From contig JANYLQ010000004.1 in NCBI GenBank assembly GCA_025363755.1, positions 62,001 to 126,000 of the forward strand: a stretch of DNA of 64,000 bases, read 5' to 3'. Shown here in pieces: positions 5,696-52,390 of this stretch. Position 1 is the stretch's first letter, and the number at the start of each line of letters is the position of its first letter. The translations under genes were made by a program, and so were the position numbers. Origin of the DNA: Hyphomicrobiales bacterium. GTDB lineage: Bacteria > Pseudomonadota > Alphaproteobacteria > Rhizobiales > Aestuariivirgaceae. Below the pieces are notes generated by a model. That model saw nothing but the letters and a program-made list of their open reading frames with translations, searched no databases and was not told the DNA's origin.

Positions 5696-8353
5696 ATGAC
5701 GGGCCTTGCGCAAATTCGTTCGACATTTTTGGACTACTTCAAAAAGCAGGGACATGAAATCGTCGCCTCATCTTCGCTCGTGCCGCGCAATGATCCGACC
5801 TTGATGTTCGCCAATTCTGGCATGGTGCAATTCAAGAATGTTTTTACGGGAGCAGAGAAACGTCCATACACGCGTGCCACGACCGCCCAGAAATGCGTGC
5901 GTGCAGGCGGCAAGCATAATGACTTGGACAATGTTGGTTATACGGCCCGTCACCACACATTTTTTGAAATGCTCGGTAATTTTTCGTTTGGCGATTATTT
6001 CAAGCCAGATGCGATTGAGTGGGCGTGGAATTTGATCACCAAGGAATATGGACTTCCCAAAGATAAGCTGACGGTTACAGTGTTCCATGAAGACGACGAA
6101 GCGCATGCATTATGGAAAAAAATTGCGGGCTTGCCAGACAGCCGGATCATCCGCATTCCAACTGCTGATAATTTCTGGTCAATGGGCGATACTGGGCCTT
6201 GCGGGCCATGTTCGGAAATTTTCTATGATCATGGCGACAAAATTGAAGGTGGCCCTCCGGGATCGGCCAATCAAGACGGTGATCGTTTTATCGAAATCTG
6301 GAATTTGGTTTTTATGCAATTCGAACAGCAGAGCAAGGACGTGCGCACGAACCTGCCTAAGCCATCAATTGATACCGGGATGGGGCTAGAGCGCATTTCG
6401 GCCGTGCTTCAAGGAACACATGATAATTACGAAACTGATTTGTTTCGGGCGCTGATCAGCAACATTGTTGAAAATACCGGTGTTGCGCCGACCCCAAAAA
6501 ATAAGGCTTCGAACCGCGTGATCGCCGACCATTTGCGCGCTTCCGCCTTCCTCATCGCTGACGGTGTTTTGCCATCAAATGAAGGCCGTGGCTATGTGTT
6601 GCGCCGCATCATGCGCCGAGCCATGCGTCATGCTGAATTGCTGGGGTGTCGTGATCCTTTGATGTTCAAACTGGTGCCTGCACTGGTTCGCGAAATGGGT
6701 GCGGCCTATCCAGAATTGGTGCGTGCGCAGCCAATGATTGAAGAAACTCTGAAACTGGAAGAATCGAGATTTCGTAATACCTTACAGCGGGGCCTTAAAT
6801 TATTGGATGAGGAATCTGCGAGTTTGGGGAGAGGGGCAACATTCTCTGGCGATACCGCTTTCAAACTTTATGACACTTTTGGATTCCCCTTAGATCTGAC
6901 ACAAGACGCCTTACGTTCTCGCGAGATTAGTGTCGATACGGATGCGTTTGGCGTGGCGATGGCTAAACAAAAAGCAGATGCGCGCGCGGCTTGGAAAGGT
7001 TCGGGCGAGGCAAAAACCGAAACCGTATGGTTTGAAATCCGCGAGCGGGTCGGGGCCACAGAGTTTTTAGGCTATGAAACCGAGACTGCCGAAGGCGAAG
7101 TGTTAGCCTTGACCGCCGAAAGCAAGGATATTTCAGAGCTCAAAGCGGGCATGAACGGTACAATCATCGTAAACCAAACTCCATTTTACGCGGAATCGGG
7201 TGGTCAGACGGGCGACCATGGTTTTATCCGCACGGCCCATGGCGACGTTTTCAAAGTAACTGAAACACAAAAACGATTGGGTGACCTGTTTGTTCATGTT
7301 GGCCAGGTCGAGAAGGGCAGCTTTAAAATTGGCGATGCTGTTGAACTTCATGTTGACCATCAACGCCGCAGCGGCAACCGGATGCATCACTCAGCAACGC
7401 ATTTGTTACACGAAGCCTTGCGCCGGGTTTTGGGCTCACATGTTGCGCAAAAAGGCTCACTCGTGGAGCCTGGTCGGCTGCGCTTTGACTTTTCGCACAC
7501 CAAAGGAATGTCGGCGGAAGAGCTCTTGCAAACAGAGACTATTGCCAACGCGATCATCCTTCAAAATGATGCTGTAAGCACCCGTCTTATGTCAGTCGAC
7601 GCTGCGATTGCTGAAGGGGCCATGGCGCTTTTTGGTGAGAAGTATGGTGATGAAGTGCGTGTGGTTTCAATGGGGCGCAACAGTGCTGACCACGAGCGCC
7701 CGATCTATTCGCTTGAGCTTTGTGGCGGCACGCATGTGGCACGCACCGGTGATATTGGGTTGGTGAAAATTGTGGCTGAGAGCGGGTCATCTGCTGGTGT
7801 TCGCCGCATGGAAGCGCTGGCTGGTGATGCCGCACGCAATTATTTGGTGCAACAAGATCAACGCGTTCAAGCCGCTGCAAGTGTGTTGAAGGTGGCACCT
7901 CATGAGTTGGTGGCCCGTGTCGAAGTGCTGGTTGAGGAGCGCCGCAAGATGGAGCGCGAACTCACCGAAGCGCGAAAGGCGTTGGCCATGGGCGGTAGCA
8001 CGGCTTCTGGTGGCGGCGATATTACTGAAGTCAACGGCGTGAAATTCATCGGACGTGTGCTGAAAGGTATTGCCCCTCAAGATTTGAAGGCTCTGGCTGA
8101 CGACGGCAAAAAGACCCTCGGCTCTGGCATTGTTGCACTGGTAGCAGTTTCAGATGACGGCAAAGGCGCTGTTGTCGTGGCCGTCACTGACGATTTGACT
8201 AAGCGCTTTAACGCCGTAGATCTGGTCAAAGTTGGCTCTATCGCCATGGGTGGCAAGGGTGGCGGTGGCAGGGCTGATATGGCACAAGCCGGCGGGCCGG
8301 ATGGCGTCAAAGCTGATGAGGCGATTATTGCAGTGAAAACCGCTATTTCTTAG
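5696..8353 (+). CDS. alaS: Alanyl-tRNA synthetase
   Basis: Charges tRNA(Ala) with alanine and edits mischarged Ser/Gly. The 885 aa product has the class II catalytic core at the N-terminus ([19 protein letters not shown]), the editing domain with the zinc-site histidines [12 protein letters not shown] and CGGTHV, and a glycine-rich C-terminal dimerisation (C-Ala) region with [15 protein letters not shown]. The open frame continues upstream to 5597, but the ATG at 5696 gives the standard [15 protein letters not shown] start and length. Follows recA as its own unit after the terminator; its 3' end overlaps the convergent GFA gene by 11 bases. Confidence 0.96.
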
Positions 8354-8879
8354 TCGGCTTGGGCGGCCAGACCTCTGTGTCGTAATCGGGGTGTTGCCAA
8401 GTTCGGAGCTTGGCAAGTTCATCTGGTTGGCGCGTTTGACCAGTCGTCGCTTCCGGCAGATTATGCAAAGTTGAAAACCAGTGAACGCGACTTTCAATAC
8501 CGATCTGGCTTTGAAGTGTTTGGATTGCGTTTGGATTATCCATTGTTCCGACAGCCAGATCGACAAACGCATCGCCTGCTTCAAACATGAACATTGGAGT
8601 TCCGCAATTTTTGCAGAAGCCGCGCTCCACGATTGGCGAGGATTTAAATGTGCTGGGTTTGCCTCTGGTCCACGAAAAACGTTCCAAACTCACTCTTAAC
8701 AAAACGGCACCAAATGATCCGAAGGCCTTTTGGCACATGCGGCAATGGCAAAGATCGGTTGTACCCAGTGGGCCATTGAAACCATAACGCAGTGCGCCGC
8801 ACTGACAGCCGCCGGAAAACTGGTGATTGTTCAGTTCTTTTGATTTGAAACCCATACTCATTAGCGAGTTGTTTACCAT
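8343..8879 (-). CDS. GFA-family zinc protein (glutathione-dependent formaldehyde-activating fold)
   Basis: The 178 aa product carries the spaced cysteines of the Mss4-like GFA family (PF04828): [16 protein letters not shown] and CKNCGTP, which bind zinc in family members. Most GFA proteins are of unknown substrate despite the name given after Paracoccus Gfa, and no other formaldehyde gene is nearby, so no specific reaction is claimed. The open frame extends to 9020, across the divergent kinase gene, so an internal start is required. ATG 8879 is used; ATGs seven and nine codons later are also possible, and none has a strong ribosome site. Its 3' end overlaps alaS by 11 bases tail to tail. Confidence 0.8.
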
Positions 8880-9012
8880 ATGTTTGCAATAAATGCACAT
8901 TGAGTGCCGATAAATTCTCTGGGGAGAAAGCGGGGGGGACGGAAAGCCCATATGGTTGTCCGGTCGCTCTGAGTATTGGACAGGCGTCTGCGATAATACG
9001 GATTTAGCAAAC

Positions 9013-10824
9013 ATGGTCAAATTTATAAACGCGCGTGCTGCTGGCTATCGACTGGCTTGGATCGTGGCGGTTCTGCTTATCCCAATAGTTTATTTGGGAA
9101 TCGCAGTTGGCATCAATTTAAAGCGTGATCTAAGCGCCATAGTACAAGAAAACATTGGCGCTGAATATTTGAACTTAATTGGCCCTGTTATAGTTGATGC
9201 GGCTGCTCATGACATGACCAATAAACCAAACTCTTCACTTAACAAATTTAGCGCCGCAATCTCCCAAGATATTGGACTTTCAGCACTCAACAACAATCTT
9301 TTGTTGTCGCTTGCTTTTAGAGAGCCAGACCACGATGCGGTGTTATCTCAGGCCGTGGCTTTGGCTCGGGAAACCGGCAAAAGTTCTGGAATTACTTATG
9401 ACGCCGATCCAGAAAGCTATCATGTTGGAATTATAAATACTGAGGATTTGCCGCGCGTTATAGCTGATTTTGATCATCTGAAGGACGTCGTACTCGTCGC
9501 TGTTTCGAATTCTACAGATCAAAACTCAAATCAGATAACGCTTGCGATTGGCAATCTTTCTTCTTCGCTGTGGCGGTTGGAGGCATCTATCGCTTCGGCA
9601 AGACAAAAAAGTTCCAGTCCCGAATTCTATGCCGACATCCTAAATCGCACCGAGTTGATCCAGAAAGACATGAACCACCTGAGCGAGATTGGAATGGGCA
9701 TGAGCATGGCCGGACAGCAGCAAATCAAAACGGAGTTGATCAATAAAATCAATTTGGTAGATTCGCGGTGGATGTCTGATTTTAGATTTGAGTCAGAAAA
9801 ATTCAGACAAAGATTTGGCTACTTGTTGCAAGAACGCAATGCCGAAATTCACAATCGCATTTTGAGGATTCTATTGACGTCGTTTGCGACGGTGTTGTTG
9901 GGACTTGGCTCAGCTTTTGGAATGTATCGGTCAACGTTGAAACAGCTTGACGAAGTTGAATTTGCAAGGTCCACCGCAATACGATCGCAGGCATACGCCG
10001 AAAAAATGTCTACAGAACTTCACAATATAAACGATGACATGGTGAAGGTGAATAAGGAGCTGGCCAGCAATATGGAGATGCTCAAAGATGCGCAAGATGC
10101 TCTGGTGAAAAAAGGGCGCATGGAACAGATGGGGCAATTGACAGCCACAATTGCGCATGAGTTGCGCAACCCACTTGGTGCTGTGCGAACGTCAGCGTTT
10201 TTGATTGAGCGCAAGATTAAAGGCAAGGAACTTGGCATTGAGCCGCAGATTGCCCGCATTAACAACGGCGTCACGCGCTGCGATGATATCATTACTCAAC
10301 TTTTGGATTTTTCACGGTCGAAAAAGATTTCATGTCGCTCGGAGAACTTGGACAAATGGTTGGAAAAAATTGTATCTGAAGAAGCTACTCAACTGCCTTC
10401 AGCTGTGGCCATTGACTGCTTGCTGGGCATGAAAGATGTTGAAGTGCCATTTGATCCGTCAAGGCTGCAGCGCGCGATCATCAATTTGGTTTCAAACGCA
10501 TCTGAAGCTATGGTTGGTAACGGTGAAGACCCCAGTCGATATGCCGTGAATTCTCCTCGCATTACGATAACCACAAAAATTGTAGACGAATTTGCGTTGA
10601 TTTCGGTGAAGGACAATGGGCCAGGTATCACGCCTGAAAATCTCGAAAAAATCAGGGAACCACTCTTTACAACCAAGAGCTTTGGTACGGGTTTGGGCCT
10701 GCCAGCTGTTGATCAAATTGTAATTCAACATGGTGGCGTTTTAGATATCTATTCTGAAGTAGGCCAAGGTGCCATTTTTACAATTAAGCTACCTCTTCAT
10801 AGTGACATAGAGCAAGCCGCCTAA
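9013..10824 (+). CDS. Membrane sensor histidine kinase
   Basis: A 603 aa two-component kinase. A helix near residues 14-34 (IVAVLLIPIVYLGIAVG) and another near 280-305 (ILRILLTSFATVLLGLGSAFG) bracket a periplasmic sensing region of about 245 residues that matches nothing I can name. A coiled coil leads to the phosphoacceptor helix with TIAHELRNPLGAVRTS (His about 382), then an ATPase domain with INLVSNASEAM, DNGPGI and FGTGLGLPAV. There is no receiver domain. ATG 9013 is preferred over the TTG opening the frame at 8956. It lies 34 bases before a soluble kinase whose catalytic half is nearly the same; two receiver proteins follow. Signal sensed is unknown. Confidence 0.88.
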   Translation: MVKFINARAAGYRLAWIVAVLLIPIVYLGIAVGINLKRDLSAIVQENIGAEYLNLIGPVIVDAAAHDMTNKPNSSLNKFSAAISQDIGLSALNNNLLLSLAFREPDHDAVLSQAVALARETGKSSGITYDADPESYHVGIINTEDLPRVIADFDHLKDVVLVAVSNSTDQNSNQITLAIGNLSSSLWRLEASIASARQKSSSPEFYADILNRTELIQKDMNHLSEIGMGMSMAGQQQIKTELINKINLVDSRWMSDFRFESEKFRQRFGYLLQERNAEIHNRILRILLTSFATVLLGLGSAFGMYRSTLKQLDEVEFARSTAIRSQAYAEKMSTELHNINDDMVKVNKELASNMEMLKDAQDALVKKGRMEQMGQLTATIAHELRNPLGAVRTSAFLIERKIKGKELGIEPQIARINNGVTRCDDIITQLLDFSRSKKISCRSENLDKWLEKIVSEEATQLPSAVAIDCLLGMKDVEVPFDPSRLQRAIINLVSNASEAMVGNGEDPSRYAVNSPRITITTKIVDEFALISVKDNGPGITPENLEKIREPLFTTKSFGTGLGLPAVDQIVIQHGGVLDIYSEVGQGAIFTIKLPLHSDIEQAA

Positions 10825-10858
10825 TTTTTTATCCGCAATGCAATTCTAGGAAAATGAA

Positions 10859-12388
10859 ATGCAATCCGAACCCAAACTTAACACTTATCTTTCGGCCGAG
10901 ACGCTTTATCAAATACTTGATCAACTTCCTACGCCCATTTATGTCAAAGATGATCAGTTAAGGTTCATATTTTCGAACAAAAAGCACTGTGAGCTAGCCG
11001 GGCGGAGTTCTGAAGAACTCATTGGTCTTTCAGATCGTGAAATATTTCCACCAGAATTATCGAACGCTTTTGTGCAAGATGATATGGATGTCATGAACGG
11101 CATGGCTGCGTTGGTTAAAGAAGAGCGGGTTCGCCATGCCGACGGAATTGTCCGCCAAGTTCTTTCGCGCAAAGCGAAACTTTTAGCTGATGGCAATAGA
11201 GCGTTGCTCATTGGAACAAACAGCGATTTAACCGCTATCAAAAAACGTGAGGAACAATATTTTGCCTTGGCCCAGACAGTTCCTGTTGGCGTCATGCAGA
11301 TTGAAGAGTCAGGCCAAATTACCTTTTTCAACCCGTTGATGCAGAGCTATCTGAGTGTTGACGTGCATGCCATGAACTCCGATGACATGTGCGCAATGGT
11401 TGGACAGCCAACTACGGACTTCCCCGGTGTCAGCAGTCGTTTTGAGTGTTCGTTTAAATCTTACGATGGAAACATTAGGCGCTTTTTGGTTATCAGTTCA
11501 GGATGGTCGATTGTTGGAACGGGAACAAATCGTGCCGCGATTGTGAGCATGGTAGATGTGTCTGAAAATGTTGAATTGAAGCGGATCAATGAAGAAATTT
11601 TATCTCTGAACATAAAACTCGCTGACAACATGAAATTGCTCAGCGAAGCGCAAGATGCATTGGTCAAAAAGGGCAGGCTTGAGCAAATGGGTCAACTTAC
11701 TGCCACGATTGCTCACGAACTTCGAAACCCATTGGGTGCCGTGCGCACCTCGGCTTTTGTGATGGAAAGGCGGTTGAAAAATTCTGGTGTTGATCTTGAT
11801 GCACAATTCAGCCGTATCAAAAATGGTGTGACCCGTTGTGACAATATCATTGCACAACTGCTTGATTTTTCGCGCGGCAAACAACTCGATTGTAAGATGC
11901 TGAATCTTGATGAATGGCTGACAAAAATTGTTGAAGAAGAAGCGGCCCGTTTACCATCGAACGTCAATATCAAATGTTTGCTCGGACTTGGAGGAACACA
12001 TGTTTCTTTTGACCCAAGTCGCTTGCAGCGTGCTATATTAAATTTGATCTCCAATGCATCGGAAGCAATGGTTGGCATCGATGGCCTAGCTGTAAAACCG
12101 GATGCACCTGATGCATTAATCACTTTGCAAACGGGCGTCGACGGCCCCTTCGTGACCATCAAAGTTACAGACAACGGGCCAGGCATGACACGCGAAATTA
12201 TTGATCGCATACGTGAACCTTTGTTCACAACGAAAAGTTTTGGAACGGGACTTGGTGTCCCCGTTATAGAGCAGGTTATTGCACAGCACGGTGGGTCACT
12301 TTCAATTGAATCAGAGCTTGGCGAAGGCAGCAGTTTTACTTTACGCTTGCCAATTTATGAAGCCGGCTCACTGCAACTATCAGCATAA
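10859..12388 (+). CDS. Cytoplasmic PAS-domain histidine kinase, paralogue of the preceding kinase
   Basis: 509 aa and no membrane segment. The N-terminus reads like PAS domains: about 15-130 (ILDQLPTPIYVKDDQLRFIF, NKKHCELAGRSSEELIG) and about 140-235. A short coiled coil leads to TIAHELRNPLGAVRTSAF (His about 286) and an ATPase domain with LNLISNASEAM, DNGPGM and FGTGLGVPVIEQV. From the coiled coil to the C-terminus it closely tracks the neighbouring membrane kinase, down to KNGVTRCD and FDPSRLQRAI, so the two arose by duplication with exchange of the sensor half. SD AGGAAAAT precedes the ATG. Likely shares the downstream receiver proteins with its neighbour; the two kinases might even form mixed dimers (inference). 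Confidence 0.87.
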   Translation: MQSEPKLNTYLSAETLYQILDQLPTPIYVKDDQLRFIFSNKKHCELAGRSSEELIGLSDREIFPPELSNAFVQDDMDVMNGMAALVKEERVRHADGIVRQVLSRKAKLLADGNRALLIGTNSDLTAIKKREEQYFALAQTVPVGVMQIEESGQITFFNPLMQSYLSVDVHAMNSDDMCAMVGQPTTDFPGVSSRFECSFKSYDGNIRRFLVISSGWSIVGTGTNRAAIVSMVDVSENVELKRINEEILSLNIKLADNMKLLSEAQDALVKKGRLEQMGQLTATIAHELRNPLGAVRTSAFVMERRLKNSGVDLDAQFSRIKNGVTRCDNIIAQLLDFSRGKQLDCKMLNLDEWLTKIVEEEAARLPSNVNIKCLLGLGGTHVSFDPSRLQRAILNLISNASEAMVGIDGLAVKPDAPDALITLQTGVDGPFVTIKVTDNGPGMTREIIDRIREPLFTTKSFGTGLGVPVIEQVIAQHGGSLSIESELGEGSSFTLRLPIYEAGSLQLSA

Positions 12389-12536
12389 AGAAACTTATTG
12401 GTAACTTTAGTCCTTAAGTTCGTATTAGGGATGGCTAACTAAAACCTTAAACGGGAAAAGAGTTGTATCAGGTTTCATTTTGGCTTCGCACTTTGATTTG
12501 CAGGGCAAATTTAAACGTATCGCAGGATGTGAGTTC

Positions 12537-13262
12537 ATGGTTCGTGCTTTGAAGATTCTGATTGCCGACGACGATGTTGATAACGCTGCTTCGCTCGGGG
12601 AACTGTTCGAAATGGAAGGGCATAATACCGTTGTTGTCCACTCTGGGGATGCAGCCGTGGCAGCCTACAAGGTTAATAATTTCGATTTGGCATTTATGGA
12701 CGTTATGATGCCAGGCAAGAACGGAGTCGAAAGTTTTTTGGAAATCAGAAAACTTTGTCCAAATGCCAAGGTCTATATGATGACGGGCTACAGCGTCGAG
12801 CAATTGCTCCGCCAAGCAACCGACAATGGTGCGATGGGGGTTTTGAACAAGCCTATCGATATCGATAAAGTTTCTGCGGCGCTTCGTGATGCAGGTGCAA
12901 ACGGCATCTTGGTTGTGGCGGAAGACGACCCTGACTTTGGCAATCATCTCATGCGCATTGTAAATGAAGGTGGCTATGTTTGCGAACTTGTCAAAACCAG
13001 CAAGTATTTGGCTTCCAACTCCAGTGCGCTCACTCCCAGCATCATGATTTTCGATCTTAAACGACCTTTGATCGATGGCTTTGAAGTGTTAAACGATTTA
13101 AAGCGGGCGGGCCGAAACGTGCCTGCAATTATAATCACCGCAACTGGTTCTCAATATCATGACACGATTGAAGCCATGCAAGATATCCGTGTGACTGGCA
13201 TTTTAAATAAACCGTTCGATCCGATGCTTTTATTGGATCAACTTGAAAACTTAGCAGCATAG
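12537..13262 (+). CDS. Tandem double-receiver response regulator without output domain
   Basis: 241 aa made of two receiver domains in a row. Receiver 1 (about 1-118) has the acidic pair in IADDDVD, acceptor Asp about 55 in MDVMMPGKNG, Thr in MMTGY and Lys in NKPID. Receiver 2 (about 121-241) has VAEDDPD, acceptor Asp about 173 in IFDLKRPLIDG, Thr in ITATG and Lys in NKPFD. Both therefore keep every residue needed for phosphorylation, and there is no DNA-binding or enzymatic output. It is likely a phosphorelay intermediate or a protein-interaction switch. The ATG at 12537 follows GGATGTGAG; the upstream TTG at 12480 is rejected. 148 bases separate it from the kinases, so it may have its own promoter. 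Confidence 0.86.
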   Translation: MVRALKILIADDDVDNAASLGELFEMEGHNTVVVHSGDAAVAAYKVNNFDLAFMDVMMPGKNGVESFLEIRKLCPNAKVYMMTGYSVEQLLRQATDNGAMGVLNKPIDIDKVSAALRDAGANGILVVAEDDPDFGNHLMRIVNEGGYVCELVKTSKYLASNSSALTPSIMIFDLKRPLIDGFEVLNDLKRAGRNVPAIIITATGSQYHDTIEAMQDIRVTGILNKPFDPMLLLDQLENLAA

Positions 13263-13276
13263 TATTGGAGAAAAAA

Positions 13277-13642
13277 ATGGGGCGCGCTCTTAATATATTA
13301 GTTCTTGATGATGATGTAGAAAATGCAGATTCGATTGCAGAGCTGTTTGCAACTGACGATCACAAAGTGATTGTTGCTTATAATGGTCAAGAAGCCATTG
13401 AAGCTTTTTCACTCAACAAAGTTGATGTGGGTTTTTTTGACGTAATGATGCCGGGTAAAAACGGCGTCGAAAGTTTCATGGAGATTAAGGCCTCGCACCC
13501 TGATGCCCGCATCTATTTTATGACAGGTTATGCCGCTAATGATCTTTTAGACAAAGCGCGTGAAAACGGCGCTTTGGGAGTTTTCAGCAAGCCGACTGAT
13601 CCTGCAAACTTACTTGATGTCTTAGACAGTGAAGCCGCTTAG
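13277..13642 (+). CDS. Single-domain response regulator
   Basis: 121 aa consisting of one receiver: acidic pair in LDDDVE, acceptor Asp about 55 in FDVMMPGKNGVESF, Thr in FMTGYA and Lys in SKPTD. It shares the run DVMMPGKNGVESF with receiver 1 of the preceding gene, pointing to recent duplication. GGAG at 13267 places the start at ATG 13277, 14 bases after the previous stop, so the two receiver genes are co-transcribed. With no output domain it should act by phosphotransfer or protein contact, like CheY/Spo0F/DivK-type proteins. The target cannot be told from sequence. Confidence 0.87.
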   Translation: MGRALNILVLDDDVENADSIAELFATDDHKVIVAYNGQEAIEAFSLNKVDVGFFDVMMPGKNGVESFMEIKASHPDARIYFMTGYAANDLLDKARENGALGVFSKPTDPANLLDVLDSEAA

Positions 13643-13678: not shown

Positions 13679-13753
13679 CGTCATGCCCGCGAAGGCGGGC
13701 ATCTGTGTTTTGCGGGTAGGAAAACGGAGATTTCCGCCTTCGCGGGAATGACG
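13679..13753. repeat. Paired-hairpin intergenic repeat, copy 1
   Basis: Begins CGTCATGCCCGCGAAGGCGG and ends with the inverse (CGCCTTCGCGGGAATGACGG); each end is itself a hairpin and the ends also pair with each other. Same layout as copies at 25879, 43489 and 52316. It lies between the convergent ends of the receiver gene and icd, where it may also block read-through. Confidence 0.85.
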
Positions 13754-13855: not shown

Positions 13856-15067
13856 TTACGCCATCGCCTTCTGCAAATTTACATCAACGGCATCGATGAA
13901 ACCTTCAGTGGTCAGCCATTTTTGATCGGGCCCAACGAGTACAGCCAAATCTTTAGTCATCTTGCCTTGCTCAATCGTCTCGACTGTCACTCGTTCCAGC
14001 GTTTCAGCAAACGTCAAGAGCTTTTCGTTGTCGTCTAATTTCGCGCGGTGCTTCAAACCGCCAGTCCAAGCATAGATCGATGCAGTGGAGTTGGTGGATG
14101 TTGCTTTGCCTTGTTGGTGCAATCGGTAATGGCGCGTCACTGTGCCGTGAGCTGCTTCGGCTTCAACGGTTTTACCATCGGGCGTGAGCAACACCGACGT
14201 CATCAAACCAAGTGAGCCGTAGCCTTGTGCGACAAGATCAGACTGTACATCGCCATCGTAATTCTTGCATGCCCAGATATAGCCGCCCGTCCACTTCATT
14301 GCTGATGCCACCATGTCGTCTATCAGACGATGCTCGTAAGTGATGCCCACTTTTTCGAAATCAGCTTTGAACTCAGCGTCGTAAATCTCTTGGAAAATAT
14401 CTTTGAAACGGCCGTCATAAACTTTCAGAATTGTATTCTTTGATGAAAAATAAACAGGCAGTTTGCGTTGTAAGCCATAGGTTAATGAGGCGCGCGCAAA
14501 TTCAATAATTGAGTCTTCAAGGTTATACATAGCCAGTGCAATTCCTGCACTTGGGGCTTTGAACACTTCTTTTTCGATGATTGCGCCATCATCGCCCACA
14601 AATTTCATTGTCAGTGTGCCCTTGCCAGGGAATGTGAAATCGGTTGAGCGATATTGATCACCATATGCATGGCGGCCGATAATGATGGGCTTTGTCCAAC
14701 CCGGCACAAGACGCGGCACGTTTTGACAGATAATGGGTTCGCGGAAAATAACGCCGCCCAAAATATTGCGGATGGTGCCGTTTGGCGACTTCCACATTTG
14801 CTTGAGGTTAAATTCTTTCACACGGGCCGCATCAGGAGTGATAGTTGCGCATTTCACGCCTACACCATACTGCTTGATTGCGTTGGCGGCATCGACTGTT
14901 ACCTTGTCATCGGTGGCATCGCGGTGTTCCATGCCGAGATCATAATATTTCAGATCAATATCGAGATAAGGCAAGATCAGCTTTTTTTTGATCAAATCCC
15001 AGATGATGCGCGTCATCTCATCGCCATCGAGTTCAACAACGGGATTGGCGACTTTTATCTTGGTCAT
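13856..15067 (-). CDS. icd: NADP-dependent isocitrate dehydrogenase
   Basis: TCA-cycle enzyme converting isocitrate to 2-oxoglutarate with NADPH formation. The 403 aa protein is the short homodimeric type shared by alphaproteobacteria and eukaryotes: N-terminal [17 protein letters not shown], substrate loop [32 protein letters not shown], the metal-site aspartates in [10 protein letters not shown] and YDGDVQSD, and the NADP region [11 protein letters not shown]. Length is as expected. It stands alone between convergent and divergent neighbours, with a start 102 bases from the MFS gene on the opposite strand, so the two starts share a divergent promoter region. Confidence 0.96.
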
Positions 15068-52315: not shown

Positions 52316-52390
52316 CGTCATGCCCGCGAAAGCGGGCATCTGCGTTTCAACGGCAAAAAAACATAGATTCCCGCTTTCGCGGGAATGATG
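52316..52390. repeat. Paired-hairpin intergenic repeat, copy 4
   Basis: Starts CGTCATGCCCGCGAAAGCGG and ends CCGCTTTCGCGGGAATGATG, nearly the same as the copy at 13679. Lies between the starts and ends of the DUF2585 and DUF4864 genes. Confidence 0.88.

Follow-up and report, generated by a model that had tools for sequence, protein, structure and literature searches.

Hubs on which several kinases converge, fusions of receiver domains, and receivers that inhibit kinases are already known. Here, we describe a four-gene cassette in a Hyphomicrobiales bacterium (GCA_025363755.1, contig JANYLQ010000004.1, positions 62,001 to 126,000; this 64,000-nucleotide stretch is referred to as the window) that encodes two histidine kinases (HK1 and HK2), a double receiver protein (domains REC-A and REC-B), and a single-domain receiver (REC3), and is a new arrangement of these familiar parts. 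In Caulobacter crescentus, several kinases converge on the output-less single-domain receiver MrrA, a FATGUY receiver handing phosphate to PhyK and LovK, whereas here the motif is absent and the receivers lie beside HisKA kinases (PMC5964349). The double receiver resembles FrzZ of Myxococcus xanthus in being two fused receiver domains, although the FrzZ kinase FrzE is a chemosensory CheA-CheY fusion (PMC4546325). Osp and FixT – receiver-like, without acidic residues, and inhibiting kinases – resemble the REC-B domains of many relatives of the cassette, which have lost acids, but are apparently not fused to an active receiver (PMC9430884). In GacS-type multikinase networks several sensor kinases act together, and unlike these networks the cassette encodes no output regulator with its kinases (PMC5992135). 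No description of this locus was found among the titles and abstract openings returned by searches of open-licence papers.

We favor, with somewhat better than even confidence, the reading that several kinases converge on shared receivers in a multikinase network, of which this locus supplies the receiver-bearing core and whose output is encoded off the locus. HK1 would sense a periplasmic signal, HK2 a cytoplasmic PAS signal, and a third, unlinked kinase of the window genome (HK3) a different signal, and these three kinases, with closely similar phosphotransfer (DHp) domains, are predicted to phosphorylate or dephosphorylate REC-A and REC3. Because REC-A and REC3 have no output domain, their phosphorylated forms most likely bind a target encoded elsewhere, for which a cyclic di-GMP (c-di-GMP) enzyme is perhaps the first candidate by analogy with related loci, and REC-B may be evolving toward a docking or structural role. 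That more than one kinase may act on one receiver agrees, at the sequence level, with the specificity residues, the co-occurrence, and the DHp collapse described below, and kinases without receivers also exist.

The initial annotation recognized two kinases with a nearly matching phosphoacceptor and ATPase half, and this is borne out: HK1 and HK2 are identical at 60 residues of an 82-residue phosphoacceptor block, and a search of the same genome with the HK1 catalytic half gives HK2 at 332 bits, HK3 at 220, and the next kinase at 95 bits or less (23 matches, self included). Only 21 of the 60 identical residues share a codon, the two genes disagree at 21 of 26 fourfold sites, and no exact DNA match between them is longer than 11 bases; recent copying or gene conversion is therefore ruled out, and the similarity is old and kept by selection on the protein. 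Low ratios of nonsynonymous to synonymous substitution (dN/dS) are seen between genomes G000 and G003 (G-labels denote genomes, L-labels fetched stretches, and C-labels contigs), at 0.00-0.02 for the DHp domains of HK1, HK2, and HK3 and 0.00-0.08 across all parts of HK1 and HK2. In a tree of catalytic halves HK1 and HK2 are intermixed by lineage, and the HK2 halves group together in 0% of 200 bootstrap trees, yet the approximately unbiased (AU) test does not reject a single HK2 clade (p 0.136), so we claim no swap of catalytic halves.

The sensor halves are different. The periplasmic sensor annotated in HK1 is confirmed by two hydrophobic segments (19-residue scanning frames starting at amino acids 8-20 and 283-286) with about 245 residues between them; in 17 homologues, the window copy included, this part gives no recurring Pfam sensor family, just stray weak matches. 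HK2 had been described as soluble with PAS domains; the same 19-residue scan finds no hydrophobic segment, and Pfam calls one PAS domain (amino acids 15-126), the second being a PAS-like segment read from the sequence by eye.

The residues that determine receiver choice, which we take from EnvZ work to lie at H+7, +8, +11, +12, +14, and +15, read GATSFL in 22 kinases of the family, with near variants in the rest. In the window they read GATSFL in HK1 and GATSFV in HK2, and the two kinases are identical or one residue apart in most genomes having both. Three other kinases of the window genome, CckA included, read MVGNQL, TVGNQL, and TPGFDL. DHp identity between HK1 and HK2 is 73.5% within genomes and 70.0% across genomes, a difference of which we make weak use as the permutation ignores phylogeny. 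At H-5, Thr is present in 42/42 cassette kinases from receiver-bearing genomes and Ile in 3/3 from receiver-less ones (G014, G015, and G027); the G026 HK2 and kinases from G030 and G034 are outside this count.

The first search covered 61 genomes, with layouts derived from regional fetches by tblastn and open reading frame (ORF) calls. The cassette, whole or in part, is at the same place between alaS and icd in 27 of the 37 genus genomes, and every one of these cassettes, even where only a contig piece was recovered, abuts alaS/GFA or icd. A double receiver is present in 22 of the 37, REC3 with kinase(s) only in two (G013 and G017), and a kinase alone in three; the other ten have nothing of the family at the cut-offs used. 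Incomplete assemblies (G006 and G035) yield no icd, the alaS-icd interval is unreadable in G018, G028, G025, and G031 (where contigs end or icd lies elsewhere), and for unreadable intervals absence is judged from searching the whole genome at the respective cut-offs. In the order, a receiver profile at E 1e-30 finds 11 of 397 genomes (six in this genus, one in another genus of the same family, and four in other families), with seven candidates scored per genome; results for named genomes hold among the matches listed.

The four-gene order of the window is found in seven genus genomes and is reshuffled elsewhere. HK1-double-REC3-HK2 occurs in four genomes (one across contigs) and, with an extra kinase, in two more; HK1b-double-HK2-REC3 in four (one cut by a contig end), where HK1b is a kinase whose catalytic half matches HK1 and whose N-terminal half does not. 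G009 has HK1b-double at a contig end. The order HK2-HK1-[DHp-less kinase-like protein]-double-REC3 is found in G029 and, over contig breaks, in G034 and less completely in G030; where cassettes lie at contig ends (G009, G026, G030, G034, G012, G020, and G005) the order is partly inferred. HK1 and HK2 belong to a single cassette together with these receivers in 18 of the 18 genomes that were compared (in G012 the cassette spans a contig break), and no genome was found in which the two kinases are distant from each other and have other partners. Reduced loci break a strict one-to-one pairing of kinase and receiver: G013 lacks the double receiver (HK1-HK2-REC3), G021 lacks HK2 (HK1-double-REC3), and G017 has only HK1b-REC3. 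The proposal that signals are merged on shared receivers thus gains from the joint retention and from the reduced loci, and loses from three genomes that keep kinases without receivers.

The DHp-less proteins adjoining HK1 (L032:10372-11553, minus strand, in G029; L243:182-1480, minus strand, in G034) consist of a sensor and a CA remnant and are 24.6% identical over 411 amino acids; the G029 copy has no Pfam match. This DHp family has additional members, with yet other N-terminal halves, outside the cassette in G026 (L202:4183-5715 and L203:1-1419) and G013 (L200:5435-7192), and at E 1e-35 no such kinase was found in cassette-less genomes.

HK3, overlooked by the initial annotation along with the decay of REC-B and the three receiver-less genomes, is a 659-residue kinase on contig C47 of the window genome, unlinked to the cassette, with a sensor differing from those of HK1 and HK2; it is the closest kinase of that genome to HK1 after HK2. 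Of the 27 genomes with cassette kinases, 13 carry full-length HK3, compared with 0 of the 10 others (E 1e-35; Fisher 0.0067, uncorrected for phylogeny). It is flanked by methyltransferase-like and fabD-like genes, as named from sequence reading. A string scan of 12 HK3 stretches found no receiver-like ORF nearby, and Pfam found no signalling domain in eight neighboring proteins, the other neighbors being read by eye only. In G054, from another family, a kinase of HK3 architecture directly precedes a double receiver (29% identity over 666 aligned positions, E 3e-80). A separate case of sensor reuse is seen in cassette-less G011 (contig C10, L205:5989-8238), in which a sensor of the HK3 type (about 30% over 350 residues) is joined to a different C-terminal half.

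The fate of HK3 in a lineage without receivers is informative. G014 and G015 retain HK1b and HK3, and neither yielded a receiver of the family. The DHp domain is the most conserved part of HK3 in 55/55 pairs of receiver-bearing genomes, sometimes narrowly, whereas between G014 and G015 it is only 31% identical, against 60% for the sensor and 64% for CA/ATPase. DHp dN/dS is 0.46 in G014/G015 and 0.02 in G000/G003; the corresponding values are 0.31 and 0.12 for the sensor and 0.42 and 0.10 for CA. The G014 copy has no His at the phosphoacceptor place, with ATP-binding motifs still recognizable. This collapse is expected if the cassette receivers keep the DHp domain of HK3. In an Icd tree covering 28 of the 37 genus genomes, the sister group of G014/G015 consists of seven genomes in which the system is absent altogether, and L051 is basal (joining branches with a moderate 85-90% bootstrap). 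L051:5391-7633, from a Hyphomicrobiales metagenome-assembled genome, encodes a kinase without the phosphoacceptor His and a REC-A without Lys, both in open frames, and thus a signalling set minus its chemistry; it is flanked by recA-alaS-GFA-GFA and, at the opposite end, by icd. From L051 through G014/G015 to the seven empty sister genomes, the series looks like stepwise loss.

All three receiver domains were annotated as complete, which is correct for the window, where each has a full set of phosphorylation residues, and does not extend to the family. REC-A is complete in 21/21 aligned double receivers (21 of the 23 found, G005 and G026 being left out) and REC3 in 13/13 homologues (the loci where the ORF caller gave REC3, among those with a REC3 match), so phosphorylation is retained in both. 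REC-B is complete in only seven of the 21; three of the 14 incomplete copies miss one acid and 11 are clearly degenerate. The G005 and G026 proteins look complete by string check, which would make the count 9/23. Mean identity is 29% over residues 123-214 of REC-B, 62% over residues 215-241 (beta5-alpha5, carrying the string GILNKPFDP), and 64% in REC-A, and an alpha1 surface is common to REC-A and REC3, not REC-B. REC-B is probably heading toward a pseudo-receiver, and is already one in about half of the relatives, with mainly beta5-alpha5 kept.

No output-domain family exceeds its Pfam cut-off in any of the four proteins, as annotated, and no output-domain gene was found between cassette genes in the loci read, several of which end at a contig end; the suggestion of an output outside the locus is thus a reasonable one, and relatives hint at its nature. 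In G024, a CHASE4-GGDEF-EAL gene (L037:5404-7560, minus strand) lies 115 bases behind a five-gene cassette on the same strand. Among other families of the order, G073 (L229) has two paralogous kinases with different sensors and a DHp match of 71/82 – matching DHp domains, as here – together with a single receiver resembling REC-A/REC3, and G147 (L230) has one kinase in the fetched stretch with a receiver; both differ from the cassette in carrying a REC-EAL protein and no double receiver. L050 has the order HK-double receiver-REC-PAS-GGDEF-EAL, L053 HK-double receiver-REC-PAS-GGDEF-(REC-PAS-kinase), and G352 HK-double receiver-REC-kinase. The one REC-GGDEF-EAL protein seen in the window genome (contig C11) is unlinked and nothing connects it with the cassette, although not all seven EAL places were read. 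A link to c-di-GMP by gene counts (EAL 7.5 per genome with the cassette versus 4.2) reduces to 1-2 independent contrasts and was dropped. Hpt and Hpt-REC proteins lie nearby in L049 and G054; the distant co-occurring Hpt protein that had been proposed finds no support, as stand-alone Hpt is present in 35/37 genomes (E 1e-6), cassette or not, with REC-Hpt proteins not searched for. A flagellar output or flagellar CheY role is unlikely, as FliM gave no match in the window genome and was found over the cut-off in 2/37 genus genomes and at E 0.001 in five.

Several observations weigh against convergence on shared receivers. Kinases stand alone at the cassette place in G027, G014, and G015, with no receiver of this family. 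The HK3 DHp collapse was observed in one lineage only, and since the HK3 sensor and CA are relaxed there too, part of the DHp signal is general decay. The HK1b DHp domain stays constrained in the same two genomes (95% identity, dN/dS 0.03), which implies that kinases of the HK1 type have, or acquired, a different target. HK3 has Val at H-5 in 10/12 copies, so Thr is not required by every presumed partner, and against the receivers alone the association of HK3 (11/13 versus 13/24, p 0.083) is not significant. An output-type gene stands beside the cassette in 1/27 genomes (G024), with none tied to it in the window genome. Moreover, the kinase-receiver-kinase-receiver order in G010, G005, and G023 resembles two pairs, and their paired kinases diverge at the specificity positions (STTSYL, AATSFV). 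These three genomes, and the adjacency of a kinase and the double receiver in distant relatives, would fit two insulated pairs that are merely neighbors, HK1 with the double receiver and HK2 with REC3; we consider this improbable, because the reduced loci of G013, G021, and G017 each break the pairing, HK1 and HK2 differ by at most one specificity residue in most genomes with both, and REC-A and REC3 share alpha1.

The matching DHp domains and adjoining segments could instead reflect mixed dimers of HK1 with HK2 (or HK3), in which the membrane sensor would bring in a soluble one and one subunit would phosphorylate the other. The slightly higher same-genome DHp identity (phylogeny uncorrected), the DHp-less proteins in the cassettes of G029 and G034, and the ATP-binding motifs of the His-less G014 HK3 are all in keeping with this, but shared receivers explain the DHp identity equally well and the HK3 CA is under relaxed constraint in G014/G015, and we consider mixed dimers unlikely. 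We attach similarly low credence to the receivers acting as feedback or sink proteins on kinases, in the manner of FixT and Osp, with REC-B a docking pseudo-receiver, possibly on CckA. The loss of acids from many of the relatives' REC-B domains despite a conserved beta5-alpha5 end, the kinase inhibition described for Osp and FixT (PMC9430884), and the presence of cckA upstream of recA-alaS in the window point in this direction; the complete REC-B of the window, which also sets it apart from FixT/Osp proteins by their lost acidic pair, the uniformly complete REC-A and REC3, and the cckA-recA-alaS grouping in cassette-less G001 point away from it. An elaboration to which we give little weight combines these ideas: at least three kinases with interchangeable DHp halves would form mixed dimers (in some lineages with a DHp-less or His-less partner in trans) on a double receiver whose REC-B is becoming a docking pseudo-receiver, and membrane and cytoplasmic signals would merge inside the kinase complex, ahead of any output. 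Finally, the decay series in one part of the genus could suggest that the cassette is a relic being lost, but the low dN/dS throughout HK1 and HK2 (0.00-0.08 between G000 and G003) largely refutes this for the window genome, and we regard it as highly improbable.

If convergence on shared receivers is correct, the cassette would belong to a small multikinase network with wiring legible from natural losses of receivers, and should the DHp collapse recur in other lineages, it would allow orphan kinases to be matched with receivers from sequence alone. Double receivers at many stages from switch to pseudo-receiver are available within the family, and c-di-GMP is a concrete hypothesis for a receiver pair without output.

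Features of the cassette and its flanks (positions in the window; bit scores from Pfam)
Feature	Position	Strand	Remarks
alaS	5696-8353	+	Left flank of the cassette across the genus; recA and cckA upstream
GFA-family frame	8343-9020	-	Separates alaS from the cassette; start near 8855 suggested by homology
HK1, membrane histidine kinase, 603 aa	9013-10824	+	HisKA 45.5 bits, HATPase_c 83.7; start set by alignment to relatives, alternative upstream TTG at 8956 possible
HK1 phosphoacceptor His382 codon	10156-10158	+	
HK2, soluble histidine kinase, 509 aa	10859-12388	+	PAS_4 53.1 bits, HisKA 48.2, HATPase_c 79.6
HK2 phosphoacceptor His286 codon	11714-11716	+	
Double receiver protein, 241 aa	12537-13262	+	Two Response_reg stretches; alternative TTG start at 12480 possible, not conserved among relatives
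Asp55 codon of REC-A (aa 1-122)	12699-12701		
Asp173 codon of REC-B (aa 123-241)	13053-13055		
REC3, single-domain receiver, 121 aa	13277-13642	+	Response_reg 77.5 bits; alternative upstream TTG start at 13265 possible
REC3 Asp55 codon	13439-13441		
icd	13856-15067	-	Right flank, convergent with the cassette

Gaps of 34, 148, and 14 bases separate HK1, HK2, the double receiver, and REC3 genes, which is consistent with one transcription unit. The kinases pass HisKA and HATPase_c, and the receivers Response_reg, at Pfam cut-offs, which places them in the two-component family; among the matches shown, none reaches an NCBIfam equivalog cut-off. Scores for CckA (cut-off 1000 bits) are 108 and 100 bits for HK1 and 91 and 119 for HK2, the best scores for VirA-like or AtoS kinases (cut-offs 647 and 646 bits) are 164 and 160, and for CpdR of the Brucella type (cut-off 180 bits) REC3 scores 50 bits and the double receiver 68, and all of these assignments were rejected. 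So was membership of the FATGUY single-domain receivers (MrrA, SdrG): at the place of the motif, REC-A of the window reads MMTGY and REC3 FMTGY. FrzZ/Frz chemosensory outputs rely on a CheA-type kinase, and that assignment fails since both kinases of the cassette are of the HisKA type, no search for CheA having been made in the rest of the genome.

Around the cassette place, the GFA-family frame is found in many relatives, sometimes in two copies, and in cassette-less G011, G001, and G019 (L140, L141, and L144) a Kup-like potassium transporter gene, named from sequence reading, lies beside icd. Directly behind the REC3 gene is one of two copies of a palindromic intergenic element (13680-13752 and 52317-52389), with 4 arm matches versus 0.01 expected.

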